Positions 7,907 to 38,596 of a stretch of 41,049 nucleotides of DNA are shown piece by piece. The stretch comes from Bacillota bacterium. Its GTDB lineage: Bacteria; Bacillota; Proteinivoracia; UBA4975; VEMY01. The translations under genes and the position numbers were made by a program. Every line of letters begins with the position of its first letter. Positions within the stretch are counted from its first letter, which is position 1. The stretch lies in NCBI GenBank assembly GCA_009711825.1, contig VEMY01000020.1, positions 1 to 41,049 of the forward strand. Direction: 5' to 3'. Under the pieces are notes generated by a model. That model did not search any database, was not told the origin of the DNA, and saw only the letters and a program-made list of their open reading frames with translations.

Positions 7907-7965
7907 TTACATTTCCTATGAACAGTTCGCAAGCCCTGCCTCAGGGCTGAAAGGCGGTGCTCCCA

Positions 7966-10256: not shown

Positions 10257-10292
10257 ATTCAAGGAAAAACACCACGGAGAGCGGTGAAATCT

Positions 10293-11919: not shown

Positions 11920-11947
11920 CTGTAAGCCTGGGGACGGAGGTGGAGTT

Positions 11948-14126: not shown

Positions 14127-14153
14127 GTTTTTTTGTTGGAAGGAGGTCGCCCA

Positions 14154-17380: not shown

Positions 17381-20215
17381 GTGTTCAGTAAGGTTAACCT
17401 GATTCGCGTGCTAAAATTTTTATATTATAAGCTTTTATGTAAGTTGCTCCATCCCTCTGGTCCGGGTTTGGATCCCTATCGGGCTGCACCTGTCAAACGA
17501 TGGTTTACTTCGTTGCTTTCCCGCAACAACAAAGCTGCGGTTAGTTTAATTGTTTCCGGAAAGCATGTCGGCTCGGGATATCGTTCCTGGATTGGACGAA
17601 AAGCTCGGATTAATGGTGTTGAGTGTTGGGCCATAAAACGGGGAAAACAGGCCGAAATCCTTTTGCTCGGCGATAGCCCGGCAATTGAAACCGTAATCAG
17701 GTTTGCCTGGCGAGGCCCAGATAAATCAATAATTGAGAATATAAAATGTTGGTGGTTTAATAAACCCACCAGTTACACAAAAAAAGCAGACACAGGGCAT
17801 ACCTTATGGCAGCAAGATACGATTGCCCAATTTATGCATACTTTGCAATATCTCAGTCCCTTACTGGAAAAACCCAACAGGTTTGATGTCAGCAGGGAGG
17901 TCAGTGATGCCAGCGAAGTACGCAGAGCAGCCCTAGCTAGGGGGCTGTTCGTTAAGCGGATGGGCAAGCTTAACTATCTAATGACCCCTGCAAAGGTAGA
18001 GGGCGTTCAAAAATCACAGCCATCCCGAGTTTCAACTTTAATTCGCTCCCTTTCTTGCCATAAACACCTGACCAAGCTACACTTGGCTAAGCATAATCTG
18101 CCTGTTCCTAACGGGAGAGTGTTAACTGAATTAGATGAAGCAAGGGAATACTTTCGTGCTTGTCGCTGTCCAATGGTTGTAAAGCCACTCTCGGGTTCTC
18201 ACGGGCGTGGAATCACTGTAAATGTAGAGACTGATGATGTTTTGGAAATTGCCTGGGATTATGCAAAGAAGTTTCACGACGAGGTAATTCTGGAAGAGTT
18301 CGTTAAAGGCGTTGATGTCCGTGTACTCGTTGTCGGTGGTAAAGCCCAGGCAGCGTTGTTCAGAGTGCCTGCCAACGTCATCGGCGACGGCAAACACACC
18401 ATTGAAGCTTTGATAGAAAAGAAAAACAAGGTCAGATTACTCAATCCAAGGATGCGGAAAGCATTGATTATCCCGGACAGTTATACAGAAGAATTTCTTG
18501 ACCGGCAAGGATATTCGCTACGCTCGGTGCCCAAGTCAGGCCAGATAGTGTTTTTGCATTTGAAGGCAAACATTGAGGCAGGAGGAGACAGCATCAGCCT
18601 GTTGGGATATATTCATCCTGACCTCATGTCCCTGGCGGAAGAGGCAGCTGCATCATTTGGCACCGATGATTATTGGGGCATTGACCTATTGGTTGAGCGG
18701 ATAGATTTGCCTCGGAGTCAACAAAATTGCAAAATAGTCGAGGTTAACTCCAGAGCAAACATCTTCAACGTACAGTTTCCCATGTATGGAGAACCTGCTG
18801 ATGTAGCTCAAGTTCTCGTAGACCACCTTGCAGGCGACACCACCGATTATCCCCAGCAGACGGTGCAAGTCAAAGTTACGGGAGCACTGACATCGGAATT
18901 TTTTCACTGGGCCGAGAGAGGCTTCATTGAACTTTCTCTACAGGGAGACATAGAGAAAGTCGGTGCGCATGCGCTAATCAATCTGCATGGCCCCCACAAT
19001 TTCTTGCTTCAGTACATTGATAACTTGATGGGTTGGCGTGATCAGAAGGCTTGGGTAGATGGTGTCCAAATTCTCGGTAACAAGGCTGAGAAAGTAATGA
19101 GGGAAGCTATTTCGAAGAGCAAACCTAGCGTTTCCAACGTGCAGAAAAATCACACTGACCTGGATGAATGGTTATTTATCAATGAATTTGAGTCTATGGG
19201 GTATGAGGCTGAAGTCCTCCCCGAAAACTTAATAAAGCTCCAAAAAGATGGCGCTATCGGTATAACAGCAACGCGCTTTAGCTCAAAGTTCTGCGATAAA
19301 TTATGTGCCTATTGGTATCACGGGAAAAAAGTGCTCGCTTTGAATGGAATACCCGTTCCACGTGGCGTGCACTTTAAGTGGACTGAATGGAGCAAGGCAG
19401 TGAGATATCTGAAGCAATTCCCTGAGCACTGTGTGGTTTCGGATCTAAATCCCGCTGGTGTACGGAAAGAAAAAATAACTGAAGAAAATCACCTTAAGGC
19501 CTTCTGGGATAGGGCCCAAAAGACCGGCACTAACTATATGCTATTTGAGGAAGATTTGATAGGAGACGAAGTTGCTATAACAGTAGTTGCCGGAAAGGCC
19601 GTTTCTGCACTTGCGATTAAACCGGTTAGCATAACGGGGGATGGCGAGAAAACAGTCGCACAACTGATAGCAGATAAAAATGTTGCACGTTCATCCAATC
19701 CATTTTATCGAAGCAAGCTGCTTTCCCTTGAAGACAGGGAAATAAATCGGATGTTAAAGTTGGCAGAAGTGAATCCAGCTGACGTTCCTAGTCCTGGGCA
19801 GATGGTATATTTAGAAGACCGAGTCAAGTTGCATCTTGGCGGAGAAACCGAAAATGTGACCAATTCTTTGCATAGCGACTTTTTCTTTTTTGCAGTCCAG
19901 GCAGTTCAGGCAATCCCCGGCTTGAAAGCCGCCACTGTCCACATGATTGTATCTCAGCCTTGTGAACCGGCAGTAGAACAAAGATGGGTTGTAATTCAAG
20001 TTAATACCAGTCCCTCTATTGCCATGTTCCATTATCCGTGGCAAGGCGAAGGATACAACCTGGTTGGCCAGATAGTTAATGATTTATGTCTAAAGGAACA
20101 AATTAAGTGGATTGAAGAGTCCGTTAATCTAAGTCCGGGGGATCAATCATTGGCATGCAATAATGACTTAAAAGCCAGTAACCAAGAAGAGCTGGGGGAG
20201 GGAGGTTTAGAGTGA
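17381..20215 (+). CDS. Acylphosphatase-like plus double ATP-grasp protein, copy 1
   Basis: This 944-residue protein has three parts. Residues 1-50 hold a YYKLLCKLL motif at 15-23. Residues about 51-129 form an acylphosphatase-like fold: GKHVGSGYRSW keeps the catalytic Arg (Arg68), but the catalytic Asn is Lys86 (CWAIK for GWVRN). Residues about 195-500 are a cyanophycin-synthetase/GshAB-type ATP-grasp with MVVKPLSGSHGRG, LEEFVKGVDVRVL, ANVIGDG and metal ligands Glu454 and Asn456. Residues about 590-925 are a second ATP-grasp-like half. There the VVKP lysine is Ser687, the glycine-rich loop is gone and the acidic metal ligand is Gln873. It lacks the Mur-ligase half of cyanophycin synthetase. 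GTG start after GGGGGGCG; it overlaps the next gene by four bases, implying coupled translation. Confidence 0.85.
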   Translation: MFSKVNLIRVLKFLYYKLLCKLLHPSGPGLDPYRAAPVKRWFTSLLSRNNKAAVSLIVSGKHVGSGYRSWIGRKARINGVECWAIKRGKQAEILLLGDSPAIETVIRFAWRGPDKSIIENIKCWWFNKPTSYTKKADTGHTLWQQDTIAQFMHTLQYLSPLLEKPNRFDVSREVSDASEVRRAALARGLFVKRMGKLNYLMTPAKVEGVQKSQPSRVSTLIRSLSCHKHLTKLHLAKHNLPVPNGRVLTELDEAREYFRACRCPMVVKPLSGSHGRGITVNVETDDVLEIAWDYAKKFHDEVILEEFVKGVDVRVLVVGGKAQAALFRVPANVIGDGKHTIEALIEKKNKVRLLNPRMRKALIIPDSYTEEFLDRQGYSLRSVPKSGQIVFLHLKANIEAGGDSISLLGYIHPDLMSLAEEAAASFGTDDYWGIDLLVERIDLPRSQQNCKIVEVNSRANIFNVQFPMYGEPADVAQVLVDHLAGDTTDYPQQTVQVKVTGALTSEFFHWAERGFIELSLQGDIEKVGAHALINLHGPHNFLLQYIDNLMGWRDQKAWVDGVQILGNKAEKVMREAISKSKPSVSNVQKNHTDLDEWLFINEFESMGYEAEVLPENLIKLQKDGAIGITATRFSSKFCDKLCAYWYHGKKVLALNGIPVPRGVHFKWTEWSKAVRYLKQFPEHCVVSDLNPAGVRKEKITEENHLKAFWDRAQKTGTNYMLFEEDLIGDEVAITVVAGKAVSALAIKPVSITGDGEKTVAQLIADKNVARSSNPFYRSKLLSLEDREINRMLKLAEVNPADVPSPGQMVYLEDRVKLHLGGETENVTNSLHSDFFFFAVQAVQAIPGLKAATVHMIVSQPCEPAVEQRWVVIQVNTSPSIAMFHYPWQGEGYNLVGQIVNDLCLKEQIKWIEESVNLSPGDQSLACNNDLKASNQEELGEGGLE

Positions 20216-23064
20216 TTACAAAAAATGTTGTCCGGCGCGCCGCAAAAGTTAACTATTATCGAATCCTCTGTAAATTGTTGGACCCCAAAAACCGGGGTCT
20301 AGACCCCTATGAAGATTCTCCGCTGAAACGCAGATTGACTGATATGATGCCTGGGAGAAAAAACTCAGCAGTTTATTTGAAGATAACTGGGGAAGTTACA
20401 GGAATAGGTTATGCCGGTTGGCTCTGGCGTAAAGCGCGTGTCCGGGATTTAGACTGCAAAGTATATGAAAACAGTGATGGCACCGTTGAGGCAGTTATTA
20501 TTGGCAATGGTGAGGATATTGAAGCGGTAGTTTTGTCGGCCTGGAAAGGGTCAAGACGGGCAAAGGTGTCGCACATTAGTGAACATTGGTTTAACAAGCC
20601 TGTCAAGTCTGGTGTTGTGGAAATCAAGGAGGAAAAGCAAGTCTCTTGGTCCCAGGGAACAGCAGATTGTATAATCAATACCCTTGACCACATTAAATCA
20701 ATTACCGGAACACCAAACGAATACCCGGATTTTAATAAATTAGTGGGAACCGATGAACTGGTCAGAGTTGCTGAGGAGCGCAACGTCTTTTATATTCGCA
20801 ACACTCGGAAAGAAGTATTTTTTGTGTCACCGACTAAAACCATTGGGTTGCAGAGGTCCCAGACAACGCGTGTGCCTTCAATGATACATTCTCTTACTGA
20901 TCATAAGCAGCTAACCAAAGATTTTTTGCAACAATATGGGCTGCCGGTTCCAGAGGGTAAGGTCTTTACTGACTTAAAACAAGCGAAAGCGTATCTGGCT
21001 GAGATGAATCGTCCAATGGTTGTCAAACCGGCGGCGGGATTAAACGGATCAGGCGTTACTGTCGATGTCCGTACTGAAGAAGCTTTGGAGACTGCCTGGC
21101 AGTATGCCAAGCTGTTCCACGAGCGTGTTGTCTTGGAAGAATTGGTCCAGGGCGTTGATATCAGGGTTGTTGTGATTGGTGGCACCGCACGGGCTGCGCT
21201 GCTACGGGTGCCTGCTAACGTCACTGGGGATGGGTGCAAAACGATCGAGCAGTTAGTTGAGGAGAAAAATAAATTGAGACTCGGCAACCCAAGACTCAGT
21301 AAGAATTTGATTATTGCGGACGCCTATTCCGACAGTTATTTGGAGCGTCAGGGGCACTCATGGGAGAGCGTCCCGAAAAAAGGTGAAGTGGTTTTCCTTC
21401 ACCTCAAGGCCAACATTTGCAAAGGTGCAGATAGTATTAGCGTGACGGATTTTATTCACCCAGACCTAATGCGCCTGGCTGAAGAGGCCGCTGCTGCTTT
21501 TGGCATCAACGACTATTGGGGTATTGACTTGCTGGCCGAAAGTCTTGACTTGCCCCGGGATCAACAACAATGCGCAATAATTGAACTCAATTCCACTGCC
21601 AATATCGAAAACGTTATTTATCCGCTCTATGGGCCTTCATTTGATTCAGCCAAGAGCTTTATCGACCACTTGTTTCCTGAAGATACCAAAGATTCATCTT
21701 ATCCTGTAGAAAGCTTGTATGTTGAGGTTGCCGGCTTACTCAACGAGGAGTTCACTCGTTGGGTTATTGATTATGCCAGAGAGTTATCACTTCGCTGCTT
21801 CCTCAGGACAGGTGAGAATAGCGCAGATATAATTATTTCTGGTTATCGCCATCATGTTTTCAACTTCTTGGACAAACTGTGGGAATGGAGAAGCAACGAT
21901 AATGGCATATTCCAGGAAGTGGTTGACGGTTTTCAGGTTCATGAGTATCAGGGGAATATCGATAGCGATGATTCTGCATTCATTTCTAAGCCGATTAGGC
22001 TTCATAATTATGAGGCTATCCAGAAAACGGGTCTGCACACTACCGAATATCCTGTCAATCACTATGATTCTGCACACACTGAAGGTGGCCTAAATGAACT
22101 CAACACCAAGCTGTTTACTGAAGAATTTTCTCGCCGTGGATTTGATGCCCTTCCTGTATATGAGGACTTGCTGAAAATTAGTAATGGCGATTCTGATGGA
22201 ATAACAGCGATGCGTTATAGCTCTCTCTTTTGTGACCGTATTTGCGCAAGGTTATATCCCGCGAAAAAGATATTAGCGCTGCACAAGTTACCGGTTGCGC
22301 GTGGTGTTAGGCTCACCGTGAGCAAAAAAAAGAAGGCCCTGGACTATATGCAGCGCATAGCTAAACCCTGCGTAGTCACAGGGTTACATCCGGTTGAGTA
22401 TAGAGCATATAAAATAACAAATGAAGAAGACCTGTTTTTCGCTTGGAAGAAGGAGAAAAAGCGTGGCACAAAAGCCATGCTCTTTGAGGAATTTGTAGAA
22501 GGGTTTACTGTTGATATTGCCGTTACCGCCGACAAATTTTCTGGAGCACTGGTAGTTGAGCCAACAAGCTTATTTGGTGACGGTAAGTCAACAATTAAGC
22601 AACTAATCGAAGAAAGAAACGAGTTACGAAAGCAAAATCCTTGGTATGCCGTTAAGTCTATCGAAATAAAAAATGGTCTCTTGAGAGTATTGGAGTCTCA
22701 GGGCAAGCAAGTTTCAGATATTCTTCAACACGGGGAAAAAATACACGTTGAGTCTGATGTGGACTTGGAGTTTGGTGGCGAGACAGTTAACATCTCAGGG
22801 ATTCTGCATGAAGATTTCAAACAAAAGGCTGTACAAGCCGTTGCAGCTATACCAGGACTGGAGTTTGCCATTGTCCAGATGCGGATTCCGTATCCTGATT
22901 TGCCGGCCGAGAGTCAGAAATGGGTTATCAACAAGATTGACACTAATCCGCAGGTGGCAATGTTCCACTTCCCTTGGCGCGGTCAACCCGTAAATTTAAC
23001 AGGAAGGGTTGTTGCAGAACTATGTTTATCGGATCGAGCAAGATGGGTAGAGAAGGGGAACTGA
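20212..23064 (+). CDS. Acylphosphatase-like plus double ATP-grasp protein, copy 2
   Basis: This 950-residue paralogue is collinear with the previous protein. The N-terminal motif YYRILCKLL is at 15-23. The acylphosphatase-like domain (about 52-130) has lost both catalytic residues: Ala68 replaces Arg (GIGYAGW) and Glu86 replaces Asn (CKVYE). The first ATP-grasp is intact, with MVVKPAAGLNGSG, LEELVQGVDIRVV, ANVTGDG, Glu458 and Asn460. The second half is degenerate: Thr723 replaces the VVKP lysine, and Lys908/Asp910 replace the Glu/Asn metal pair. One active ligase site with a regulatory or acceptor-binding second half is the simplest reading. The GTG start lies inside the TGA overlap with the upstream gene. 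Confidence 0.85.
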   Translation: MITKNVVRRAAKVNYYRILCKLLDPKNRGLDPYEDSPLKRRLTDMMPGRKNSAVYLKITGEVTGIGYAGWLWRKARVRDLDCKVYENSDGTVEAVIIGNGEDIEAVVLSAWKGSRRAKVSHISEHWFNKPVKSGVVEIKEEKQVSWSQGTADCIINTLDHIKSITGTPNEYPDFNKLVGTDELVRVAEERNVFYIRNTRKEVFFVSPTKTIGLQRSQTTRVPSMIHSLTDHKQLTKDFLQQYGLPVPEGKVFTDLKQAKAYLAEMNRPMVVKPAAGLNGSGVTVDVRTEEALETAWQYAKLFHERVVLEELVQGVDIRVVVIGGTARAALLRVPANVTGDGCKTIEQLVEEKNKLRLGNPRLSKNLIIADAYSDSYLERQGHSWESVPKKGEVVFLHLKANICKGADSISVTDFIHPDLMRLAEEAAAAFGINDYWGIDLLAESLDLPRDQQQCAIIELNSTANIENVIYPLYGPSFDSAKSFIDHLFPEDTKDSSYPVESLYVEVAGLLNEEFTRWVIDYARELSLRCFLRTGENSADIIISGYRHHVFNFLDKLWEWRSNDNGIFQEVVDGFQVHEYQGNIDSDDSAFISKPIRLHNYEAIQKTGLHTTEYPVNHYDSAHTEGGLNELNTKLFTEEFSRRGFDALPVYEDLLKISNGDSDGITAMRYSSLFCDRICARLYPAKKILALHKLPVARGVRLTVSKKKKALDYMQRIAKPCVVTGLHPVEYRAYKITNEEDLFFAWKKEKKRGTKAMLFEEFVEGFTVDIAVTADKFSGALVVEPTSLFGDGKSTIKQLIEERNELRKQNPWYAVKSIEIKNGLLRVLESQGKQVSDILQHGEKIHVESDVDLEFGGETVNISGILHEDFKQKAVQAVAAIPGLEFAIVQMRIPYPDLPAESQKWVINKIDTNPQVAMFHFPWRGQPVNLTGRVVAELCLSDRARWVEKGN

Positions 23065-23065
23065 A

Positions 23066-25231
23066 ATGAGAAGAATAAATAGAATTGCTAAGTCTTACTA
23101 TAAGGCGTTTCGTGTGTTATTGAAAAATAAAGATAAGCTAACAAAGCAATCTTCCGTAAAGGAAATCACTACACAACAAGCCAAGAATTTTGTGCTTACT
23201 TTTGGTGGTGACACAAATTTTAGAGATTTCGATGATTTTTCGCATAAAGATTTCGATTTTTTGCTCAGGGATAATGACTATTTTATTGTAAACCTTGAAC
23301 CGTCCTTTGGAGATAAGTTTGATCGACATCTTCGCGCAGGGCGGACAGAATGTCTTCAACCTTTTGTAGAATCCTTGAAGGGATTAGGTGTAACTGCCGT
23401 AAGCCTTGCAAATGAAAGCTCTACCACTATTACCCCAGAAGCTCTTCAGATCACAAAATCTTATTTAGAGCAAGCAGGCGTTGTTTGCTTAGGCGCTGGT
23501 GTTAATAAGCAAGATGCCTCGTCACCTCTAAAAATCAAACTACAGGGCACTACTTCATGTCAAAATTTATACATCCTAACAGGGTTATGGGTTTCAAAAC
23601 GTGATAGAGAAACGACAAAGGCCGTTTTTGCTGCCAAGGAAGCTGCCGGTGTGTACTCCTTGAATGTTGAAAAAACAGTTAAAAAAGTTACTTCTTTGAG
23701 AAAAGAAGACCCGGAAGCACTTATTATAGTCTTTCCTCATTGGCAAGGTTTTGAGGGAAAGAAGGTGCCATCCAAAGTTAAGAATATTTGCAATAAGTTT
23801 ATCACGGCTGGAGCTAACTACGTTATTGGCCATGGTACACATTACTTGGATTACTTTGACGTAGTTGGCGATGGGGCAATATTCGGCTCAATAGGTGACT
23901 TTCTACGTAATTGTTCATTCTCGAGTAAAAAGCGCAATGTGTTACCGTTTAGTGGAGTTGTTAGGTTGGAAATTTGTGAAAAAGACAATGGATGGGCTAT
24001 AAAACAAAAACTTTACCCTATTAGCACAGGGCAATCAAAACCTGGAAATGTAGACTACACAGACGCCAAAATTGTTCAGGCACACCTTGCTTCCGCAATT
24101 CAAGCAGGCATTAAGCAAGATGGTCTAGGGTATTATTTTTCTGGCGAAGCACACAAAGACTCTACTCCTGAAACAAGTGAAATTGTACCTAATAAACTTG
24201 TAAAAGCAATTCAACAAGGATTACAACAAAATGTATACTCGTCAGATGAGCGTTACAGTATTTACGATTTGCTCATGACTGAATTTAAGAAGTATGGTTA
24301 TGAATGTACCATGGTAGATAAACTTATGACCGTAGAAATTAACGATAAGCAAGTAGCTTTTATAAAGACTGTTTCTTCAAAAACTTCAGCAGTGGCTTCA
24401 AGGGTTTTAAAGGATAAGAACTGTGCACGACAAGTTTTTCAACGAGCAGGTGTGAATATCGCAAAGGGGAAACTGTTTGATAGCTCTGACTTTTATAATG
24501 CTGTCTCTTATGCTATGACTTTCCCGGCATGCGTTGTTAAGCCTGTAAATGGCCGGAAAGGAAGGGCAGTCTCGGTGGATATTCGGAATGGAGTAGAATT
24601 CTATACGGCTTGGAATGCGGCCAGTACTTTTTCGAAAAGGGGAATCCTTGTTGAAGAATGTTTTGATGGGGGAATGGAAGGGCGATTTCTGGTTGTTAAC
24701 GGAAAGTGTATTGCTGTATATGCTAAAGTGCCTCCAGCTATTATAGGCAACGGGAATAATACAATTGAAGAGTTAATAGCGCATAAAAATAAACTCCGTT
24801 CATCAAATCCCCATTTGCAACGCAGTCCGATTCAATTAAGCGAATATAGAATTCAATTTCTGAGAAAACAAGGATATGACTTAGATAGTGTTCCAGCTCA
24901 AGGCACCGCAGTGTATATTGACCTAAACTCTAATGTATCAGCTGGTGGGGATAGCTTTGATTTCACCGATGCAGTGCACCCTTCTTACAAAACCGTAGCT
25001 GAATTGGCAAGTTCTTCTGTACCTGGCCTTGATATAGCTGGAGTAGATATCATAGCAACCGACTTTACTCAAAAGGCTACTGAGACCAATTATATCGTAA
25101 TCGAAGCTAATACAGAACCGGCTTTGGGTGGGCACCATTATCCTGTATATGGAACTCCAAGGAACGCTGCAAATGAAATCGTAAAATATATTTTACAGTC
25201 CGAAGGTATCGCATTAAAGTCTAATCTCTAG
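23066..25231 (+). CDS. CapA (PgsA-like) plus ATP-grasp fusion protein
   Basis: This 721-residue fusion has the YYKAFRVLL motif at 11-19. Residues about 42-330 form a CapA/PgsA-type domain of the calcineurin-like fold: FGGDTNF (Gly-Asp at 48-49), NLE at 76-78, FPHWQG and IGHGTHYL (His256, His259). The family NNH metal motif is N116-E117-S118 here, so one ligand set is lost. Residues about 400-721 are one ATP-grasp domain with CVVKPVNGRKGRA, VEECFDGGMEGRFL, AIIGNG and Glu680/Asn682. CapA proteins serve poly-gamma-glutamate capsule synthesis or export in Bacillus. Fusion to an ATP-grasp ligase couples the two roles in one chain. It starts two bases after the preceding stop. Confidence 0.82.
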   Translation: MRRINRIAKSYYKAFRVLLKNKDKLTKQSSVKEITTQQAKNFVLTFGGDTNFRDFDDFSHKDFDFLLRDNDYFIVNLEPSFGDKFDRHLRAGRTECLQPFVESLKGLGVTAVSLANESSTTITPEALQITKSYLEQAGVVCLGAGVNKQDASSPLKIKLQGTTSCQNLYILTGLWVSKRDRETTKAVFAAKEAAGVYSLNVEKTVKKVTSLRKEDPEALIIVFPHWQGFEGKKVPSKVKNICNKFITAGANYVIGHGTHYLDYFDVVGDGAIFGSIGDFLRNCSFSSKKRNVLPFSGVVRLEICEKDNGWAIKQKLYPISTGQSKPGNVDYTDAKIVQAHLASAIQAGIKQDGLGYYFSGEAHKDSTPETSEIVPNKLVKAIQQGLQQNVYSSDERYSIYDLLMTEFKKYGYECTMVDKLMTVEINDKQVAFIKTVSSKTSAVASRVLKDKNCARQVFQRAGVNIAKGKLFDSSDFYNAVSYAMTFPACVVKPVNGRKGRAVSVDIRNGVEFYTAWNAASTFSKRGILVEECFDGGMEGRFLVVNGKCIAVYAKVPPAIIGNGNNTIEELIAHKNKLRSSNPHLQRSPIQLSEYRIQFLRKQGYDLDSVPAQGTAVYIDLNSNVSAGGDSFDFTDAVHPSYKTVAELASSSVPGLDIAGVDIIATDFTQKATETNYIVIEANTEPALGGHHYPVYGTPRNAANEIVKYILQSEGIALKSNL

Positions 25232-25328
25232 TTTTCAGCTATTTAAACGAAATGCTTGATGCTGAATAGTCAGGTTAGTCTTTTATAGAATGGTTGCACA
25301 CTATTCGTGACCAGTAAAGGGGTCTTTT

Positions 25329-26153: not shown

Positions 26154-26199
26154 GAATATGAAGCACAATCAAATCTATAAATTATAAGGGGGTATCTAG

Positions 26200-28278
26200 G
26201 TGAGACCAAATCAATATAAAGGGAAAAAATATAAACCGAAAAAACTTCTTGAGCGTAAATATACAAAGCTGGGACTCGACACAAAAAGAATCGGTAAATA
26301 TGTTTTTGTGAATTTTGACGATAGATTAATGGTGTATGGCGGAGGGTCTTATTCAAGTAATAAAGGCCTTCTTGCTTCCCAAATTGCGAATAACAAAATC
26401 ATTACAAAAAAAATCTTCAAAAAACATGGCATAAATGTACCCGAAGGCAAGGTATTCTCTGAAGATAAAAAGGAACTTGCAAAGAAATATCTATGCAAAT
26501 TTGATAAAGCGGTGATTAAGCCAGTTGATGGGCGCAAAGGAAAAGGCGTCACTCTAGGTGTATTGCCAGCTAATTTCGATAAAGCATGGAATTATGCGAT
26601 TGATAATTCGAAGTCTAAAAGAATTATTGTTGAAGAGATGTTTGAAGGAATTTATACACGTTTCTTGGTCGTAGATGGGAAATGTGAAGCCGTATTAAAA
26701 GTATCTGAACCAAATGTTGTTGGGAATGGTAAGGATTCTATTGAGACATTAATCGAAAAAAAGAATAAAATTAGATCTTTAAATCCCCATCTAAAAAGAG
26801 GGTTGATTCAGGTTGATGAGCATAGGATTTCAATACTGAAAGAACAAGGATATAAGCTAAAAAGTATACCTAAGAAAGGTAAGTATGTAAGAATTGATAA
26901 AAAGGCAAATTGTGCAGCAGGGTCAGATTCTAGTGATATTACTAACGAGGTACATCCTCAGTTTAAAAAAATAGCAGAACTTGCAACGCAGGTTATTCCT
27001 GGGCTAGATGTTGCGGGTTTAGATTTTCTTATTAAGGATCCTACGCAGGTTCCTACCAGTGATAATTACGTAGTTATTGAGAATAACGGTCAGCCTGTAC
27101 TGGCTGGGCATATGTTTCCATTTTATGGAGAACCAATTAAGATTGTTGATATTATAGCAGATAAAGATTTGAGGAGAGTTAATGCTTTAAAAACCTTTGA
27201 GATGGCTAATGGCAACACTAAACAATGCTTCACATCCGGAGGAATAGCCGGAGATAAAGAGTTTAACAAGAACAATTACGAAGAGAAACTAAATGATGGT
27301 GAATTAATAGAGACTGAGTTTGCTAGACGTGGGTTTAAACCGTTGAAAGTCGCTGCTTATAATCTTTACAAGATATCAAATCAATGGATAGGATTCCATC
27401 AAGCAATTAGTTCAAATTTATCTCTGATTAGCACCAAACTAGTAAAGAATCTATATTGGCGCAAAAATATTTTTGAACAAACCGAAGTTAAAATAAAGAC
27501 AAGCTGTATATTTAAATTAGACGATAGAGAAGGAGCCGAAAATTACTGGCGCTCCCTAGATAACCCTTTAATGAAGTTTGAAACTGGCAAAGTTGTTCGG
27601 GTTACAAACGAGAATGAAGGTAACTTTAAGCTAACCTGGGAAGATGCCCTAGAGAAAAGTAAGTCATTGGTGGGAAAAGGGGTCTTGATTGAGGAGCAAT
27701 TTTGCAGAGGTAATAAAGCTAAATATCTTGTTGTAGATAACCAGTGCGTGGCTGTGTGCCTATATGAACCTGTAAAGATCGTCGGGAATGGGCAAGATAG
27801 CATCTTCTCCTTGGTTCATGAGGATCTCACAAAAATCTGCCACACCAAAGAGGTTAAAATTAGCGAGTCAGATGCTTTATGTGTTGTAAACAATACAGTT
27901 TTTAACCTTGGCTATGATAGAGATTATATACCTCAATTTGGCCAAGAGATAGTATTTTATTATGAATGTGAAGACTACGATATTCAAGATAGTTATTCCA
28001 TCTATGAATACACAAACCCATATTTAATCGAGATAGCTGAAAGTGCTTCAAAAATTTTGCCTGGACTTGACATTATAAGTGTCGACATCTATTCCGACAA
28101 TCACTTCGGTAAGAATAGTATTCCTAACTATGTTGTAGAAGACATTAATACTTCGCCAAATATCTGTAACTACCAGTATCCAAGTTATGGTAAAGAAAAT
28201 GATGTGGCAAAAAATATTGTTGATTACATTATGCATCGGGCATATCGAGACAAATTAGTTCGGGAGATGATGGATTAA
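26200..28278 (+). CDS. Double ATP-grasp protein without acylphosphatase
   Basis: This 692-residue protein has two ATP-grasp halves and no acylphosphatase domain. The first (about 60-335) is cyanophycin-synthetase-like and intact: AVIKPVDGRKGKG, VEEMFEGIYTRFL, NVVGNG, AAGSDSSD, and Glu294/Asn296 for metal. It is closest to the ATP-grasp half of the gene at 23066. The second (about 365-690) keeps EEQFCRGNKAKYL and KIVGNG, but its VVKP-like site reads LMKFETG and its metal pair is Asp648/Asn650, so activity is less certain. The GTG start follows AAGGGGG. This is among the most A+T-rich genes of the window: a 60-base sample at 26221 is about 37% G+C. Confidence 0.82.
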   Translation: MRPNQYKGKKYKPKKLLERKYTKLGLDTKRIGKYVFVNFDDRLMVYGGGSYSSNKGLLASQIANNKIITKKIFKKHGINVPEGKVFSEDKKELAKKYLCKFDKAVIKPVDGRKGKGVTLGVLPANFDKAWNYAIDNSKSKRIIVEEMFEGIYTRFLVVDGKCEAVLKVSEPNVVGNGKDSIETLIEKKNKIRSLNPHLKRGLIQVDEHRISILKEQGYKLKSIPKKGKYVRIDKKANCAAGSDSSDITNEVHPQFKKIAELATQVIPGLDVAGLDFLIKDPTQVPTSDNYVVIENNGQPVLAGHMFPFYGEPIKIVDIIADKDLRRVNALKTFEMANGNTKQCFTSGGIAGDKEFNKNNYEEKLNDGELIETEFARRGFKPLKVAAYNLYKISNQWIGFHQAISSNLSLISTKLVKNLYWRKNIFEQTEVKIKTSCIFKLDDREGAENYWRSLDNPLMKFETGKVVRVTNENEGNFKLTWEDALEKSKSLVGKGVLIEEQFCRGNKAKYLVVDNQCVAVCLYEPVKIVGNGQDSIFSLVHEDLTKICHTKEVKISESDALCVVNNTVFNLGYDRDYIPQFGQEIVFYYECEDYDIQDSYSIYEYTNPYLIEIAESASKILPGLDIISVDIYSDNHFGKNSIPNYVVEDINTSPNICNYQYPSYGKENDVAKNIVDYIMHRAYRDKLVREMMD

Positions 28279-28305
28279 CTTTTGAGTTTCAGAAAGGGGC
28301 AGCCT

Positions 28306-31300
28306 ATGAGTAAGGTCTACTTTAAGCGCGTTAGTAATAACTCCATAGACGAAGTTAGCCTTTCAGCAAAATTAGTCCTAAAAAAGTTAATAGAGGTAGA
28401 GAGATGTATATTTTCTCACTTTACCCCTATCAAAGTTACTTTTGGCGAGAAAGGTAACAAGACATTTGTTCCGCCTTCAGGTTATGATGGTATTATCGAT
28501 TATTTGCACAAGCAAAATGTCAGAACGGCTTATATCGAAACAAACGTTCTTTACAGAGGTTCAAGGACTACGACAGAAAACCACATTAAATTGGCGTTGG
28601 AACATGGCTTTTCCAGAATACCTGTAATTATTGCTGACGGCCAAGTAGGCGAAGAATACGAACAGATAGAAATTAATAAAGCATTTTATAAGCATTGTAA
28701 AATTGCTAAAGGTTTCTCGGATTACAATCAATTTATTGTTGCAAGCCATTTTAAGGGGCACCATCGGACAGGCTTTGGTGGGGCAATTAAGCAATTAGGT
28801 ATGGGATTCGCTTCCAGGCCAGGCAAGATGGAACAACACACTGATTTTACACCATTAATAAGAAAAAATAGATGTACAGCGTGTGGGGTGTGTGCTAAGC
28901 AATGTGATTTTGACGCTATTTCCATACAGGATGTTGCTGAGATTGACCCAATAAAGTGCGTTGGGTGTGCGGGCTGTATCGCTTTTTGTCCAACAAAAGC
29001 AATACGAAATAGCTGGAAGGGTTCTAATTTTATTGAGAAGCTCTCGGAGTATGCCTTTGCTGCTCAATTAAATAAAGACAATGTATACATCAACTTCTTA
29101 ATCAACATAACCGAACATTGTGATTGTAAAGGTAGAAAGCTTCCTTTGGTAATGGATGACATAGGAGTACTTGCTTCGTTAGATCCTGTGGCTATTGATG
29201 CAGCTTCGTTAGATATTGTTCAAAAGGAATCCGGCAAACAACTGTTTGATAAAGGCAGAAAAACATTACAGTACTCAGAGAGTATAGGACTGGGTAGTTC
29301 CAAGTATGATTTAGTCGAACTTGGTGTCAAGCAGACTTCTAAGTTTGCAGGGTTGCCCAAACGTTGTGCATCAAAACTGATTGAGAAAACCAGCAGTTTG
29401 ATTTCCCCTTTCGAGAAATTCCATGAGACTCAAATTAACAAGGCATCTAGTACCACTGAATCAGGTAGGAAATTTATTATTACTTTTGCCGGCGATACAA
29501 GCCTTGGTGATAATTATATAAGAAAAATGAAAAAACCGTCTCTAAGCAATCGATTGGAAAAGAATCCTCTATCATTTTTTAACAATGTTCATCCTGTTAT
29601 CAAAGACAGCGATTACTTTATTCTCAACTTTGAAAGTGTCTTAGCCGATAAACCGAAGAAATATTTGGAGGGAAAACAATTCCCGAACTGGGACAGCCCA
29701 GAACGGACTTTAGATGTATTTAAACGTTTGGGAGTTAAAGCTGTCAGTATGGCCAACAACCATGCAATGGACTTTGGCCCCAGCGTTATGCTAGAAACAA
29801 AACGTCGTTTCGAAGAAGCGGGAATAAGCTGTTTTGGTGCTGGCGCAGATCACTTAGAGGCTTCAAAACCACTAAAAATTACTCTTACAGGTAAGACCAG
29901 TTCAGTAAATGTCTATGTTTTTACTGGTATGCGTGCTTCCAAACGTTATCGTGATGACTATGGGTTTTTCGCAGGCAGTAATACGCCTGGTGTAAACTGG
30001 TTAGGTGTGAAACAAATAATCCATAGCATTAAACGTCTGAGAAGAAAAGATCCCAAATCATTGATTATTGTTTGTCCCCATTGGCAAGGAGTCGACTATA
30101 GACCTGTTAAACCGAAAATGAAGAAGAAGTGTCAGCAACTCGTTGAGGCAGGGGCAAATTTTGTGTTTGCCAGTGGTACACATATGCTGAGCAATGTTGA
30201 GCGGTGGGGAACAGGAATAATTTGTTACTCAATTGGTAACTTTGTGTTTAATTCTAGCGGGCGATATGCAAAGTTTAATGCTCCCCCTTATAGTCTCCTT
30301 GTGAGAATGGAAATTTTAGAAACAGATAAGGGTTGGCGAGCAACTCCTGTGTTTTACCCCATTATTACGGATAATGCGTCCACTGATTTTCACGTCCAAT
30401 TACTAGATGATTCAAGCGCAAGTGGTTTCAATCCAGCTTTAATCGGGCAGGGTGCGAAAAAGAGAAAACATAATGGGCATACCGGATTTTGGTTGGATGA
30501 ATTAGACGAGTCAACTTTACACGACTATATATTGGGAAATACAAGTTTAAACAAGCTTGATTTTAACGACGAATTTGTATTGGAAGATCAGATAAATCAG
30601 CTTGAGAATCTGCATGATCAACTCGATTTACAGTTCCATGCTTATTATGATTATTTATTCAGAAGTAAGTTACTCAAAACTCGCAACGAGAAGTCTCGCA
30701 GTTATTTTGAGGCATTATCAGGAGCTGTTAAACGAGACTATGTTAGCCATTACATTTTAAGGAAGTTTGAAAGAAGTAAAGTTAGCTTACCCACTACGAT
30801 ATCGTTTAGGGACATAATGGTGGAGAATTCCAGCATCCGTCGTTTAGGTTGCCCTGATTATGCATGGAAGCTTGATAAAAAAAATACTGCATATAAGTTT
30901 GCTGATAGTATTGGACTGCGCAGACCAACAACCGATAACAACGTCTATCGCTTAGAGGATATACAACCACAGAGTGGTCCAGTAGTACTAAAACCTGTCA
31001 AAGGCACAGGTTCCATGGGTGTGTATCTTATCTTCACTAAGGATATTATTTTTTCTGTCCGGGATGGAATTTGGTTGAAGAGTTGGACAGAGGCAATAAA
31101 TGATGCTATGAAGAAATGGCAGCAACGTAAGTTGGGTAAAAATACACTTTTGACCAAAGATGAATGGATGTTGGAAGAGCTCATCTTAAAGGAAAAAGGG
31201 GCGACCATGCCAGCATCTGATCTTAAGTTTTATTGTTTTTACGGCGAGGTGCTGTTAGTCGTGGAGATTGATCGTGCGTCGCAGTTCGGGAAGTTTTGTT

Positions 31301-31623
31301 ATTGGGACTCAGACATGAATTTGGCTGATACCGGCAAATTCGGAGATAATCAATTCAATGGTGTTGGATTCGATAAAGAACACCTAGAGGTAGTGAAGAA
31401 AGTGAGTCTGGAAATACCCGCTCCCTTTGTTAGGATTGATATGCTTAATGGTTACGATGGACTGGTATTGGGTGAATTTACCCCGCGGCCAGGTAAGTTC
31501 CAAAATTTTAATGATAAATGGGACCGTAAACTGGGTGAGGCCTATCGCAGGGCTGAAGGTCGTATACAGACTGATTTGCTATCTGGTAAAACTTTTGATG
31601 CTTACACGAGTGTTTTTAAGTAG
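28306..31623 (+). CDS. DUF362-ferredoxin, CapA and TupA-like ATP-grasp fusion
   Basis: This 1105-residue protein joins three modules. Residues 1-330 look like DUF362 (GSRTTTENHIKLALEHGF, ASHFKGH, GFGGAIKQLGMG, LDPVAIDAASLD). Two [4Fe-4S] motifs are inserted in it: Cys190/193/196/200 and Cys218/221/224/228, each CxxCxxCxxxC. Residues about 388-700 are a CapA domain with AGDTSLGD, NFES, an intact NNH (484-486) and PHWQGVDY, but Ser623 replaces the first His of the usual GHxxH. Residues about 740-1105 are an ATP-grasp domain resembling TupA (VVLKPVKGTGSMG, FVRIDM, LGEFTPRPGKF). ATG 28306 follows GAAAGGGG by six bases; a TTG at 28282 does not. I know of no standard function for this combination. 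Confidence 0.82.
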   Translation: MSKVYFKRVSNNSIDEVSLSAKLVLKKLIEVERCIFSHFTPIKVTFGEKGNKTFVPPSGYDGIIDYLHKQNVRTAYIETNVLYRGSRTTTENHIKLALEHGFSRIPVIIADGQVGEEYEQIEINKAFYKHCKIAKGFSDYNQFIVASHFKGHHRTGFGGAIKQLGMGFASRPGKMEQHTDFTPLIRKNRCTACGVCAKQCDFDAISIQDVAEIDPIKCVGCAGCIAFCPTKAIRNSWKGSNFIEKLSEYAFAAQLNKDNVYINFLINITEHCDCKGRKLPLVMDDIGVLASLDPVAIDAASLDIVQKESGKQLFDKGRKTLQYSESIGLGSSKYDLVELGVKQTSKFAGLPKRCASKLIEKTSSLISPFEKFHETQINKASSTTESGRKFIITFAGDTSLGDNYIRKMKKPSLSNRLEKNPLSFFNNVHPVIKDSDYFILNFESVLADKPKKYLEGKQFPNWDSPERTLDVFKRLGVKAVSMANNHAMDFGPSVMLETKRRFEEAGISCFGAGADHLEASKPLKITLTGKTSSVNVYVFTGMRASKRYRDDYGFFAGSNTPGVNWLGVKQIIHSIKRLRRKDPKSLIIVCPHWQGVDYRPVKPKMKKKCQQLVEAGANFVFASGTHMLSNVERWGTGIICYSIGNFVFNSSGRYAKFNAPPYSLLVRMEILETDKGWRATPVFYPIITDNASTDFHVQLLDDSSASGFNPALIGQGAKKRKHNGHTGFWLDELDESTLHDYILGNTSLNKLDFNDEFVLEDQINQLENLHDQLDLQFHAYYDYLFRSKLLKTRNEKSRSYFEALSGAVKRDYVSHYILRKFERSKVSLPTTISFRDIMVENSSIRRLGCPDYAWKLDKKNTAYKFADSIGLRRPTTDNNVYRLEDIQPQSGPVVLKPVKGTGSMGVYLIFTKDIIFSVRDGIWLKSWTEAINDAMKKWQQRKLGKNTLLTKDEWMLEELILKEKGATMPASDLKFYCFYGEVLLVVEIDRASQFGKFCYWDSDMNLADTGKFGDNQFNGVGFDKEHLEVVKKVSLEIPAPFVRIDMLNGYDGLVLGEFTPRPGKFQNFNDKWDRKLGEAYRRAEGRIQTDLLSGKTFDAYTSVFK

Positions 31624-31692
31624 CAGATCAGTTTAATTTCGACTATATGACTTCTACAGCGCAAAATTTTGTTTTAAGGGAGTGAGCGCTAG

Positions 31693-33198
31693 ATGAAAAT
31701 TAAACGGATGTTTAAGGTTGCATATTATAAGGCACTTTGTGACTTGCTAGGTTCGAAAGATAAAGATTCAAACGTTGTGAAACGTTTCTACCAATTGGTT
31801 CCCGGCAAGGAGGCGGTGCATGTCTTCATTACGGGAAAGGTTACGGGGGTAGGTTACCGAAAGTGGTTGAGGCGAGAGTCGAAGAAACGTAAAGTCGATT
31901 GTTGGGTCCGCAATAAAGACAGAAACACAGTAGAAGCCGTGCTAATAGGACAAGGCCGAAAATTAGATGCGCTTGTTGATGCCGCCAACATGGGGCCAAA
32001 AAGAGCACAAGTTGATACCGTTAGACCTAAGTGGTTCCGTAAATCTTCTGAAGGGTTAGTTGGCAAAGCTGCAGCCGACAGCAATGGGGATTTAAAGGAC
32101 GTTCTGCTTGGCAAGATAGGTTTAAGCAAAATTGACTTTAATGATGAAAATGTCCTCCGTAATCACATTGTACAGCTTGATGAATTACACCAGCACATTG
32201 ATGAGCGGTTTAAGAGTTTTTATGATAAGCTATTCAGAAGTAAACCTCTAAAGACTCGTAGAGCTGAGTCCCGACAATTATATGAGAGGCTGGCTGCTAT
32301 AGTTAAGAAGGATTATATTAGCCATTACACTCTTAGAAAGTTTGAAAGAAGCAAGGTAAATATTTTAAAGACAATTTCTTTCCGAGATATCATGGTAGAA
32401 AACTCAACAATTCGTCGTTTGGGATGTCCTGAGTACGCCTGGAAACTTGACAAAAAAAATATTGCATATCGATTTGCTGACGAGATTGGTTTGCGGCGAC
32501 CTGCCTCGGATTCCAAAGTTTACAAACTATCAGATGTTGAACCTCAAAGCGGGCCTATTGTTCTTAAGCCGGTGAAAGCTACAGGTGCTATGGGCGTCTA
32601 TCTGATCTTTGCGAAGGATAGAATATACTCAGCCAGGGATGGAATCTGGATGCGGTGTTGGGCTGAAGTTATTGATGATGCTGCCAGTAAGCTGGACAAA
32701 CGTGCCCAGGGGAAGAACTCCTTGATGACAAAAGATGAGTGGATGTTAGAGGAACTAATTGTTGATCCGGATAATCCCAAAGTGCCGGCATCTGATTTAA
32801 AATTCTACTGTTTTTACGGTGAAGTTTTATTAATTCAAGAAGTAAACCGTGAGAGACATTATGGTAAAGTATGCTTCTGGGATCAGGATTTAATCGCTGT
32901 AAAAACGGGCAGGTATGATGACAAACTCTTCCAGGGATCTGGCTGCTTGCCGGAACATATGGAGACCGTCAAAAAAATCAGTTTACAAGTCCCTGCACCG
33001 TTTATTCGTATCGATATGCTTAAGGGGAAAGAGTTAGTCCTCGGAGAGTTTACCCCAAGGCCCGGTAAATTCGATGCTTTCAACGATGAGTGGGATCGTA
33101 AATTTGGTGTCGCCTATCGAAAGGCCGAGGCTCGAATTAAAAGCGACTTGTTGAATGGAAAAGGATTTGACGCGTTCAAAAAAACCTTCCGGGTCTAA
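31693..33198 (+). CDS. Acylphosphatase plus TupA-like ATP-grasp protein
   Basis: This 501-residue protein starts with YYKALCDLL at 11-19. An acylphosphatase domain (about 40-115) follows, with both catalytic residues kept: Arg56 in TGVGYRKW and Asn74 in CWVRN. Residues about 125-501 are a TupA-like ATP-grasp domain very close to the C-terminal part of the preceding gene, sharing FRDIMVENS, IRRLGCP, YAWKLDKKN and EFTPRPGKF. The TupA family takes its name from the gene needed for teichuronopeptide in alkaliphilic Bacillus. Having an intact acylphosphatase next to an enzyme that forms acyl phosphates is unusual. An AAGGGAGTG site precedes the ATG. Confidence 0.83.
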   Translation: MKIKRMFKVAYYKALCDLLGSKDKDSNVVKRFYQLVPGKEAVHVFITGKVTGVGYRKWLRRESKKRKVDCWVRNKDRNTVEAVLIGQGRKLDALVDAANMGPKRAQVDTVRPKWFRKSSEGLVGKAAADSNGDLKDVLLGKIGLSKIDFNDENVLRNHIVQLDELHQHIDERFKSFYDKLFRSKPLKTRRAESRQLYERLAAIVKKDYISHYTLRKFERSKVNILKTISFRDIMVENSTIRRLGCPEYAWKLDKKNIAYRFADEIGLRRPASDSKVYKLSDVEPQSGPIVLKPVKATGAMGVYLIFAKDRIYSARDGIWMRCWAEVIDDAASKLDKRAQGKNSLMTKDEWMLEELIVDPDNPKVPASDLKFYCFYGEVLLIQEVNRERHYGKVCFWDQDLIAVKTGRYDDKLFQGSGCLPEHMETVKKISLQVPAPFIRIDMLKGKELVLGEFTPRPGKFDAFNDEWDRKFGVAYRKAEARIKSDLLNGKGFDAFKKTFRV

Positions 33199-33329
33199 TT
33201 CTACTACGGCTCAATTTAAGTGACTGTTGCTTCCGGGGTCTAGAACGAAAACTTGAAGATTGTGTCTCTTTTACAGTAATCTCATAACAATAGTTGGCAC
33301 TTACTTTGTATGTTTTGTTCCCAATTGTT

Positions 33330-33338
33330 TGGTATAAT
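33330..33338 (+). promoter_or_regulatory. Extended -10 promoter for the export genes
   Basis: TGG-TATAAT lies in the 183-base gap before the ABC permease gene, about 45 bases before the chosen start. No clear -35 is visible. The rest of the gap (33199-33329) shows no obvious terminator. Confidence 0.55.
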
Positions 33339-33381
33339 AGGCTTTATAATGGGACAAGTCATAGGAAAGATGGTGTATCAC

Positions 33382-34161
33382 ATGAAGAAATATCTCCAGG
33401 AGATGTATCGCAGAAAAGATCTCCTTGTTTATCTTGTTTTTTCCGGACTGAAGGCGGAGCACCGGAACAGCTTCCTTGGGTATTTCTGGTGGGTGCTCGA
33501 CCCACTGCTTCGCGTCGCAATATATTATTTTCTGGTTGGGATACTCAGAGGTAGAGCTGAGGGCTTTGATTTCGTCGGCTTCTTGGTAATTGGCCTGATG
33601 GGTTGGCGCTGGACTGCTTCAACTATGAGCAGGTCTGCTAAAGCAATAACCGGTAAGGCTGGAATAATATCAAAGGTGTATCTGCCAAAGCTCATATTCC
33701 CTATCGGCACGACTTTTACACAAATGGTCAATTTTTGTTTTAGCCTGAGTATTATTGCCTTGTATCTGATCATTTCCCAGACAATTCCCGGAATGAACCT
33801 TATTTGGTTGCCGTTTATTATGTTAATCCAGTATGTATTCCTACTGGCCATTAGTATGGTTTTAAGCTATTCTGCAGTCTTTATTCGGGATATTGAAAAC
33901 CTGTTGCGCCATATTACAAGGCTCTGGTTTTACAGCTCACCAGTCATCTGGGAACATGGGCGTTTGGGACCGGACTACCAATGGTTTGTTGACCTGAACC
34001 CGATGGCATCGATTTTAAATAGCTATCGTAATATTTTCTTGTATGATGCCGCACCGATGTTCAATAAGCTGCTTATTATCGGGGGCATATCTTTGGTTGT
34101 TGTAGTTGTAATGACCTACTACTACAGTCGTAACGAGCACAAAATGATAAAGCTACTTTAG
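33382..34161 (+). CDS. ABC-2 type polysaccharide/teichoic acid export permease
   Basis: This 259-residue membrane protein of the TagG/Wzm/KpsM family has about six membrane helices. The family N-terminus is clear: a basic cytoplasmic segment (RRKDLLVYLVFSGLKAEHRN) followed by SFLGYFWWVLDPL. The conserved ending FYSSPVIWE ... LNPMASILNSYRNIFL is present too. It would move the lipid-linked polymer across the membrane together with the ATPase at 35519. ATG 33382 is preferred: the longer frame from 33310 would begin upstream of the -10 element at 33333, and GATGGTG lies six bases before 33382. Confidence 0.88.
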   Translation: MKKYLQEMYRRKDLLVYLVFSGLKAEHRNSFLGYFWWVLDPLLRVAIYYFLVGILRGRAEGFDFVGFLVIGLMGWRWTASTMSRSAKAITGKAGIISKVYLPKLIFPIGTTFTQMVNFCFSLSIIALYLIISQTIPGMNLIWLPFIMLIQYVFLLAISMVLSYSAVFIRDIENLLRHITRLWFYSSPVIWEHGRLGPDYQWFVDLNPMASILNSYRNIFLYDAAPMFNKLLIIGGISLVVVVVMTYYYSRNEHKMIKLL

Positions 34162-34221
34162 AGGAATTGGGCCATCAGGGAGCAATCCGTATTTGTGAGC
34201 AATTTTGGGGTGGGATTTACA

Positions 34222-35475
34222 ATGAAAAATCAGATCTATCCAGTCAAACCAATAAGCTTTAAGTTAGGTGGCGCCGAGTCCTCGGAAATAGCACAGTATC
34301 TTCATGCGATGTATTTCAAGCATCGTCTGGAGTATCTCAATAAGTGTAAGAAAATCCCTGGCAGCAGTCTTGTTCGCTCCTGGAATTGGTACTACAAAGA
34401 GGTCTTGCTTGAATCTATCCATCGCGTTTCCAGAAGCGGAAGAAGAATAAAAAAGGTTTATGGCATTCCACTCACAAAGCAATTTCTAGACATTATCAAA
34501 ATGTCTCTTTCGTTACCTGCCCGTCCCCAGGAGTACTACATTTTCGACTTGTTCAAGCAACCAAACAGAGAAGTAGCACGGGAGTATATCTTTCGACATG
34601 AAGTTAAAAACGTGCTGTATAAAATGTTAATCAATACCCCAAAGATAGCTAAGAAATCGCCCCTTACCAACAAAGGCAGATTTGCCCGTAAAGCACTGCG
34701 TAATGGCCTTGCGATAGCACCTACAATCTGCACTATTAATAAGGGTAAGGTAAAGTACTACAATGAACACTCGCCCCAGGGAGATGTGTTCGTCAAGACT
34801 TTGAGTGGCCGTGGAGGTAAAGGCGCAGACCTCTGGCAGTACGATCAGGAGACAAATTTATTTACCCATAGTAAGGTCAAAGGTAAATATAAGTTAGAAG
34901 ATGTTTTAGAGCTCTATTCCAAAAAGAGCAAAAAGGAATCCTATATTTTTCAGCAGAAGGTATCTAACCATCCAGACCTGTCTGAGATAGCATGTAATGC
35001 TCTATCAACTTGTAGAATTGTCACCATGCTAAACGAAAACGATCAACCCGAAGTTGTGACTGCTGTATTAAGGATGGCAGCTAGAGCCGATAGCATCGTT
35101 GATAATATTCATCGAGGCGGCATTGCAGCTCCGATTGATATAATAGATGGACGTTTGGGGAAGGCAACGAATCTCGGTGTGGTTGACCGCGTCGAACGCC
35201 TCTCCAACCATCCTGTTTCCGGTGCGAAAATTGAAGGGCGTGAGCTGCCATTCTGGCCTGATGCCATTAGCGCAGCGCTGCATGCTCATGAAGTTTTTCG
35301 TCCCCGAGTAATTATCGGCTGGGATATTGCGATTACTGCATTCGGTCCTGTCATAATTGAAGGGAATGCACAACCATGTGTAGATTTAATCCAACGCCCT
35401 TACGACAAACCGCTGGGAAATTCTCGTTTCGGTGAGTTATTGGCATACCATCTCCGTAAACTCAACTTCGGCTAG
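34222..35475 (+). CDS. Sugar-transfer-associated ATP-grasp protein, copy 2
   Basis: This 417-residue protein belongs to the same family as the gene at 16048. It shows VFVKTLSGRGGKGAD (ATP loop), IFQQKVSNHPDL, STCRIVTML, IVDNIHRGGIAAPIDI, HPVSGAKIEGRELPFW, VIIGWDIAI and the metal motif IIEGNAQP. The N-terminal 100 residues are basic and helical. ATG 34222 follows GGGGTGGGA; GTG 34195 is an in-frame alternative. It separates the permease and ATPase genes of one transporter, which implies tight functional linkage to export or to the last modification before export. Substrate unknown. Confidence 0.82.
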   Translation: MKNQIYPVKPISFKLGGAESSEIAQYLHAMYFKHRLEYLNKCKKIPGSSLVRSWNWYYKEVLLESIHRVSRSGRRIKKVYGIPLTKQFLDIIKMSLSLPARPQEYYIFDLFKQPNREVAREYIFRHEVKNVLYKMLINTPKIAKKSPLTNKGRFARKALRNGLAIAPTICTINKGKVKYYNEHSPQGDVFVKTLSGRGGKGADLWQYDQETNLFTHSKVKGKYKLEDVLELYSKKSKKESYIFQQKVSNHPDLSEIACNALSTCRIVTMLNENDQPEVVTAVLRMAARADSIVDNIHRGGIAAPIDIIDGRLGKATNLGVVDRVERLSNHPVSGAKIEGRELPFWPDAISAALHAHEVFRPRVIIGWDIAITAFGPVIIEGNAQPCVDLIQRPYDKPLGNSRFGELLAYHLRKLNFG

Positions 35476-37027: not shown

Positions 37028-37037
37028 ATATGGCTAG

Positions 37038-38571: not shown

Positions 38572-38596
38572 AGTCTGATTAATGGAGGGAAGCGTT

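Follow-up and report, generated by a model that had tools for sequence, protein, structure and literature searches.

The window analysed here, a stretch of 41,049 bases comprising contig VEMY01000020.1 (C20) of a Bacillota bacterium assembly (GCA_009711825.1; 3.09 Mb, 99.8% complete), contains a TagO-to-LCP wall-polymer locus in which eight proteins, encoded between 16048 and 35475, carry eleven ATP-grasp domains. At the heart of this battery lie two consecutive genes, termed AcG1 and AcG2, whose products are duplicated fusions of acylphosphatase-like and ATP-grasp domains. The locus probably directs the synthesis of an anionic wall polymer that is initiated by TagO, exported by an ATP-binding cassette (ABC) transporter and anchored by a LytR-CpsA-Psr (LCP) enzyme, and to which ATP-grasp ligases, acting in succession, attach amino acids or short peptides. 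This is the most economical reading because the association of the array with export and wall-attachment genes is conserved, and because its ligases belong to amide-forming families.

The proteins of the window were profiled with Pfam and NCBIfam, and the cyanophycin synthetase model TIGR02068 was run over the genome. Named by the first position of their genes, the ligases comprise an ATPgrasp_ST domain in 16048, two domains in each of 17381, 20212 and 26200, one in 23066, TupA domains in 28282 and 31693, and a second ATPgrasp_ST domain in 34195:

16048..17331, + strand: ATPgrasp_ST ligase ST1 (PF14397, 6e-38; K, D, E and N present); orthologs adjoin the arrays of relatives G101, G062, G377 and G302
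17381..20215, + strand: AcG1, acylphosphatase-like domain, active-looking ATP-grasp, degenerate acylphosphatase-like domain and pseudo-ATP-grasp
20212..23064, + strand: AcG2, architecture as AcG1, final ligase of the AcG array (last-of-array clade, support 100/100)
21706..21945, + strand: residues ~499-578 of AcG2, forming its second acylphosphatase-like domain, which no longer has the catalytic motif (profile-profile comparison, AlphaFold2 model, alignment)
22108..23031, + strand: pseudo-ATP-grasp half of AcG2; Lys, Asp and Glu lost across readable homologs
23066..25231, + strand: CapA domain (PF09587, 3e-27; NH..D motif lost) and active-looking ATP-grasp of CphA type
26200..28278, + strand: tandem ATP-grasp protein, N-terminal half active-looking, C-terminal half doubtful
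28282..31623, + strand: DUF362, two [4Fe-4S] motifs, CapA (NNH..D kept) and TupA ATP-grasp (PF04015, PF00037, PF09587, PF14305)
31693..33198, + strand: acylphosphatase (PF00708, 1.5e-14; Arg and Asn kept) and TupA ATP-grasp (PF14305, 7e-37)
34195..35475, + strand: ATPgrasp_ST ligase ST2 (PF14397, 1e-43; K, D, E and N present)

A first-pass annotation of this DNA had listed the same eight proteins, accompanied by CapA and acylphosphatase domains and a glutamate racemase, and flanked by TagO, LicD, TagD, ABC and LCP genes. The profiles bear out this inventory, including the CapA domains (PGA_cap), and match DUF362 with two 4Fe-4S motifs; the open reading frames are at or near the positions proposed for them, and the count of eleven domains stands. 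As a count of active ligases it is overstated: catalytic residues are kept in eight of the eleven, the C-terminal halves of 17381 and 20212 are dead, and the C-terminal half of 26200 is doubtful. That inventory also missed a second, degenerate acylphosphatase-like domain, reported by no domain library, in both 17381 and 20212.

AcG1 (944 residues) and AcG2 (950 residues) are 42% identical. Each opens with an acylphosphatase-like domain, and the ATP-grasp domain that comes next is of the cyanophycin-synthetase/GshAB type. When residues 45-500 were compared with residues 496-945 by profile-profile alignment (hhalign, 14 homologs), the two halves matched over 407 columns with a probability of 100, an E value of 2.8e-38 and 22% identity; the second half thus repeats the first, through duplication of a complete unit of acylphosphatase and CphA-type ATP-grasp. 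An AlphaFold2 model of AcG2 (mean predicted local distance difference test score 70, predicted template-modelling score 0.41, with unreliable relative placement of the domains) displays the beta-alpha-beta-beta-alpha-beta arrangement twice, in residues 52-127 and in residues 499-578. The nearest solved structures, both by sequence (phmmer) and by fold (Foldseek), are cyanophycin synthetases and GshAB, which are amide-forming ligases.

The two halves have met different fates. In the first, K272, E309, R332, D439, E458 and N460, which on the established picture of the ATP-grasp fold (Ddl and GshB) are its nucleotide and metal ligands, are invariant in all 14 homologs, spanning two classes. In the second, the lysine is replaced by Thr or Ser, the aspartate by Gln, His, Asn or Lys, and the glutamate is lost in all readable homologs, while full length is retained and many other residues are invariant; the second halves are therefore conserved pseudo-ligases, which probably serve in substrate holding or in a dimer-like assembly. 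A literature search found no text joining ‘acylphosphatase domain’ with ‘ATP-grasp’; the arrangement is undescribed in the literature searched, and the duplicated protein with its conserved pseudo-ligase half looks like an undescribed family.

Elsewhere in the battery, the ATP-grasp domain of 23066 and the N-terminal half of 26200 appear catalytically intact, and the ATPgrasp_ST and TupA domains display, by eye, the expected lysine and acidic residues. Acylphosphatase domains are fused not only to the AcG ligases but also to TupA (31693) and, in relatives, to ATPgrasp_ST ligases. Judged by the catalytic Arg of the VGxR loop and the Asn following GWVxN, both residues are kept in 31693 and in the ST1 fusions of G101, G062 and G377, are mostly lost in the first domains of the AcG proteins, and are all lost in the second. 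By analogy with how ATP-grasp enzymes work through acyl phosphates, the domains with intact Arg and Asn probably hydrolyse such intermediates when they stall or are incorrect. The CapA domain of 28282 is weakly matched by MslH, a metal-dependent peptide epimerase; judged by motif retention, an epimerase role is possible for this domain and unlikely for the CapA domain of 23066. In 28282 an iron-sulfur domain (DUF362 with two 4Fe-4S motifs) is fused to CapA and TupA within a polymer-synthesis protein, and a literature search on DUF362 yielded nothing useful for interpreting it.

Two ATP-grasp halves that are dead, a third that is doubtful, and degenerate acylphosphatase and CapA domains are what an ordinary expansion of paralogs in a rapidly evolving capsule locus might leave behind, with one or two ligases still of importance and the others relics. 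That account is very improbable, given first-half active sites that are invariant over 14 homologs from two classes and dead halves that persist at full length with invariant residues of their own. The preservation of gene order, described below, combined with the retention of the dead halves and the invariance of the first-half sites, indicates that the array is under selection.

The array is carried by seven genomes in all, in two classes, and where contigs extend far enough it adjoins an ABC exporter, ST1 and CDP-glycerol-type transferases; the question posed with the first-pass annotation, whether these genes travel together, is thus answered positively in those seven. Within the window's own class (13 genomes) the array occurs in two further genomes, G101 and G062, in both cases with a permease (54% identical), a double ATPase (56-57%), a nucleotidyltransferase, an ATPgrasp_ST-acylphosphatase fusion and CDP-glycerol transferases, and in G101 also with a TupA protein. 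In G377, of the second class, the order reads LCP, permease, double ATPase, nucleotidyltransferase, CDP-glycerol transferase, ATPgrasp_ST-acylphosphatase, two AcG proteins and a CapA-TupA protein that is a 51% counterpart of 28282. A 23066-like ligase lies close to CDP-glycerol transferases in G301, and two further ATP-grasp-acylphosphatase proteins adjoin a CDP-glycerol transferase and a permease in G303. A scan of GTDB r220 with two peptide patterns from the AcG-specific C-terminal half, in which the family is under-sampled, returned three loci only, all in Bacillota metagenome-assembled genomes and each with two to three consecutive AcG genes, on short contigs, one of which is cut off within the array at either end. 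In the other two (L038/L039) a CDP-glycerol-transferase-like gene precedes the array, which is followed by a gene with an acylphosphatase-type N-terminus as in 31693. Most phylum-wide matches to AcG2 (~880 residues, ATP-grasp part only) were set aside as ordinary cyanophycin synthetases.

The ligases also co-occur tightly. In the second class, where AcG proteins occur in four of 98 genomes (two of the four being fragmented metagenome-assembled genomes), there are two full-strength ST1 orthologs, both in genomes with AcG proteins, and the next best match has an E value of 1e-12; the chance of both ST1 orthologs falling among the four is p ~ 0.001. Moreover, the last AcG proteins of five arrays, from five genomes across both classes, form a single clade with 100/100 support, so that position in the array is conserved. 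Such a position-specific group of orthologs is what one would predict were every ligase responsible for a separate step, and the presence of many distinct orthologous ligases suggests that the steps are successive.

Several features of the relatives' loci deserve separate mention. In G377 (L055-L057) an IS3-like transposase pair, at ~36983-38163 of the reverse complement, separates the last AcG gene from the CapA-TupA gene, whose product aligns to 28282 from residue 458 onward, the N-terminal part being apparently lost or displaced. On the same contig (C7; reverse complement 43489-49538 of a 56-kb stretch) and beside the array are genes whose sequences suggest a phosphoenolpyruvate mutase-cytidylyltransferase fusion, a decarboxylase of phosphonopyruvate, an alcohol dehydrogenase of the Fe type, a CDP-alcohol phosphotransferase and a LicD-like protein, the predicted functions of which probably provide a phosphonate decoration (2-hydroxyethylphosphonate type) of the same polymer. 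Shorter proteins with the reversed order, ATP-grasp then acylphosphatase, lie near the exporter or array in G062 (L036) and G303 (L058), and that of G062 keeps the acylphosphatase Arg and Asn.

The remaining genes of the locus, which from 7957 to 40813 are all on the same strand with mostly short gaps (the AcG1/AcG2 junction being -4 bp and that between AcG2 and the CapA-ATP-grasp gene 1 bp), are as follows:

7957..9060, + strand: TagO/WecA-like undecaprenyl-phosphate sugar-phosphate transferase (PF00953, 1.5e-32; WecA/MraY models)
9079..10215, + strand: family 2 glycosyltransferase (PF13641)
10284..11186, + strand: family 2 glycosyltransferase (PF00535)
11206..11919, + strand: CDP-alcohol phosphotransferase (PF01066), with a counterpart close to the G377 array
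11861..12856, + strand: NAD-dependent sugar epimerase/dehydratase (PF01370), with a 57% identical counterpart close to the G377 array
12873..14126, + strand: LicD-family phosphotransferase 1 (PF04991, above cut-off)
14133..15563, + strand: LicD-family phosphotransferase 2 (PF04991; 53% identical to the first by blastp)
15611..16021, + strand: TagD-like glycerol-3-phosphate cytidylyltransferase (PF01467; TIGR01518 95 bits, under the cut-off of 165)
25329..26153, + strand: glutamate racemase, the genome's second copy (TIGR00067 227 bits, cut-off 147)
33310..34161, + strand: ABC-2 permease of the polymer exporter (PF01061), 50-55% identical in G101, G062, G377 and G303
35519..37027, + strand: TagH-like ABC ATPase whose single chain contains two nucleotide-binding domains, both complete (NF010066; Walker A and signature motifs each present twice)
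37150..38067, + strand: GalU-like UTP-glucose-1-phosphate uridylyltransferase (PF00483), also close to the array in G101
38582..39763, + strand: UDP-glucose 6-dehydrogenase (PRK15057 630 bits, cut-off 757), with a 68% identical copy close to the G101 array
39899..40813, + strand: LCP wall-anchoring ligase (PF03816, 2.9e-42)

The double ATPase is 56-57% identical in G101, G062 and G377, where it again stands next to a single permease gene. Both LicD-family proteins (12873-15563) are extended at the N-terminus by a long stretch unrecognized by Pfam. Outside the locus, 293-2775 encodes a surface protein whose C-terminal tail is LPxTG-like (LAETGSN, a hydrophobic stretch and RRR), immediately upstream of a sortase gene.

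On the proposed scheme, the TagO-type transferase would start the chain on undecaprenyl phosphate, and the glycosyltransferases and LicD/TagD-type phosphotransfer enzymes would build it. The ATPgrasp_ST, CphA-type and TupA-type ligases would convert carboxylates into acyl phosphates and couple these to amines, so that amino acids become attached to a sugar or uronic acid and/or to one another, with the AcG array as the conserved core in which the first ligase half would be catalytic and the second a pseudo-ligase. The ABC pair would then export the polymer, and the LCP enzyme would attach it to peptidoglycan. The domains, the duplication, the lost residues, the synteny and the orthology of the paralogs are observed, while amide chemistry on the polymer, the order in which parts are added, editing and which amino acids are used are inferred. 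A more elaborate version, possible but doubtful, is an ordered ATP-grasp assembly line that makes a sequence-defined peptide, with every paralog contributing one particular amino acid, fused acylphosphatases editing incorrect acyl-phosphate intermediates and pseudo-ligase halves positioning the chain as it grows, to yield a peptidyl-teichoic acid that is neither ribosomal nor the product of a non-ribosomal peptide synthetase.

The same ligases might instead do no more than place small amines on the polymer's uronic or carboxylic groups, capping or amidating them, which would give a peptide-free product of the glucuronamide type. The UDP-glucose dehydrogenase and nucleotide-sugar genes of the locus would suit such a product, and glucuronic acid is known to be amidated in the capsule of C. 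jejuni HS:2 (PMC11800379); the many distinct orthologous ligases, with their CphA/GshAB-type grasp domains, fit amino-acid acceptors better, and amidation alone appears quite unlikely.

Several considerations nevertheless weigh against an amino-acid-bearing polymer. The chemistry of the wall product is predicted from its genes, and ATP-grasp enzymes can also make amides of non-amino-acid amines, esters or acyl phosphates. For ATPgrasp_ST we know of no product, and no relative in the PDB was found by sequence. None of the relatives' loci examined showed the racemase, DUF362 or the tandem protein 26200. Finally, a CphA protein scoring above the TIGR02068 cut-off, apparently split across the ends of contigs C42 and C70, is encoded elsewhere in the genome; with an apparent true CphA present, CphA-type sequence alone does not reveal the product. 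That protein also qualifies the earlier statement that no complete cyanophycin synthetase is seen, which holds for the AcG proteins. A cyanophycin operon was considered for the locus itself and rejected, since the Mur half is missing and the apparent true CphA lies elsewhere.

A narrower proposal, of a teichuronopeptide-like copolymer, has the ligases making poly-glutamate, with D-Glu from the racemase and help from CapA, joined to a glucuronate-rich glycan. Teichuronopeptide consists of poly-gamma-L-glutamate and polyglucuronate (PMC8153356), and TupA, CapA, an extra glutamate racemase, GalU and UDP-glucose dehydrogenase do occur here in one locus. However, the glutamate of the known polymer is L-Glu, one CapA domain is without its catalytic motif, the window contains no PgsB/CapB-type ligase, and the relatives' CDP-glycerol transferases point to a teichoic-type backbone. 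Furthermore, this genome has two full-scoring racemases and the six other AcG genomes one each, which places the racemase outside the conserved core and weakens it as evidence for a D-Glu polymer. Such a copolymer is unlikely. The first-pass suggestion that ATP-grasp ligases serve a glycan or teichoic-type wall polymer, with teichuronopeptide nearest, fits all of the findings. The predicted polymer would resemble teichuronopeptide in the way it works; its amino acids are a prediction, and glutamate in it, or identity with teichuronopeptide, would go beyond what the genes show.

Should the preferred reading of an amino-acid- or peptide-bearing wall polymer be correct, Gram-positive-type walls would contain teichoic polymers with attached peptides, the products of a dedicated array of ligases. 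The AcG architecture makes it testable whether a fused acylphosphatase proofreads the acyl-phosphate intermediate of ATP-grasp ligases.

Compared with known systems, the locus shares CapA domains and a glutamate racemase with the PgsBCA/CapBCA poly-gamma-glutamate synthases, but its CapA domains are fused to ATP-grasp and one is catalytically degenerate; no Mur-type PgsB/CapB ligase, in line with the first-pass annotation, and no PgsC were matched by Pfam among the window proteins scanned, a genome-wide search not having been made. The ATP-grasp domains of AcG, 23066 and 26200 are of the type found in CphA and GshAB (GshF). Unlike CphA, the AcG proteins have no Mur-ligase half (TIGR02068 scores of 318 and 308 bits against a cut-off of 850, in the grasp part only), are duplicated with acylphosphatase-like domains, and belong to a wall-polymer locus rather than to a storage polymer. 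With TagGH-exported wall teichoic acid the locus shares TagO-, TagD-, TagGH-like and LCP genes (TagD falling below its TIGR01518 cut-off and TagH being a double ATPase), and its relatives share the CDP-glycerol transferases. It differs in its ATP-grasp battery, its double ATPase chain and its two LicD proteins in place of CDP-glycerol glycerophosphotransferases (TagB/F; PF04464), which are absent across the whole genome and present in relatives. The closest likeness is to the teichuronopeptide and TupA of Bacillus halodurans, with a TupA-type ATP-grasp (PF14305; 4e-42 in 28282 and 7e-37 in 31693) in a wall-polymer setting and enzymes of uronic acid and glutamate metabolism nearby, the composition being represented at the gene level by UDP-glucose dehydrogenase and the racemase. 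In contrast to that system, the present one has many ligases, drawn from three ATP-grasp families, as well as fusions to acylphosphatase, halves that are pseudo-ligases and an exporter of teichoic type; if our reading holds, teichuronopeptide would grow from a one-gene curiosity into a modular pathway.

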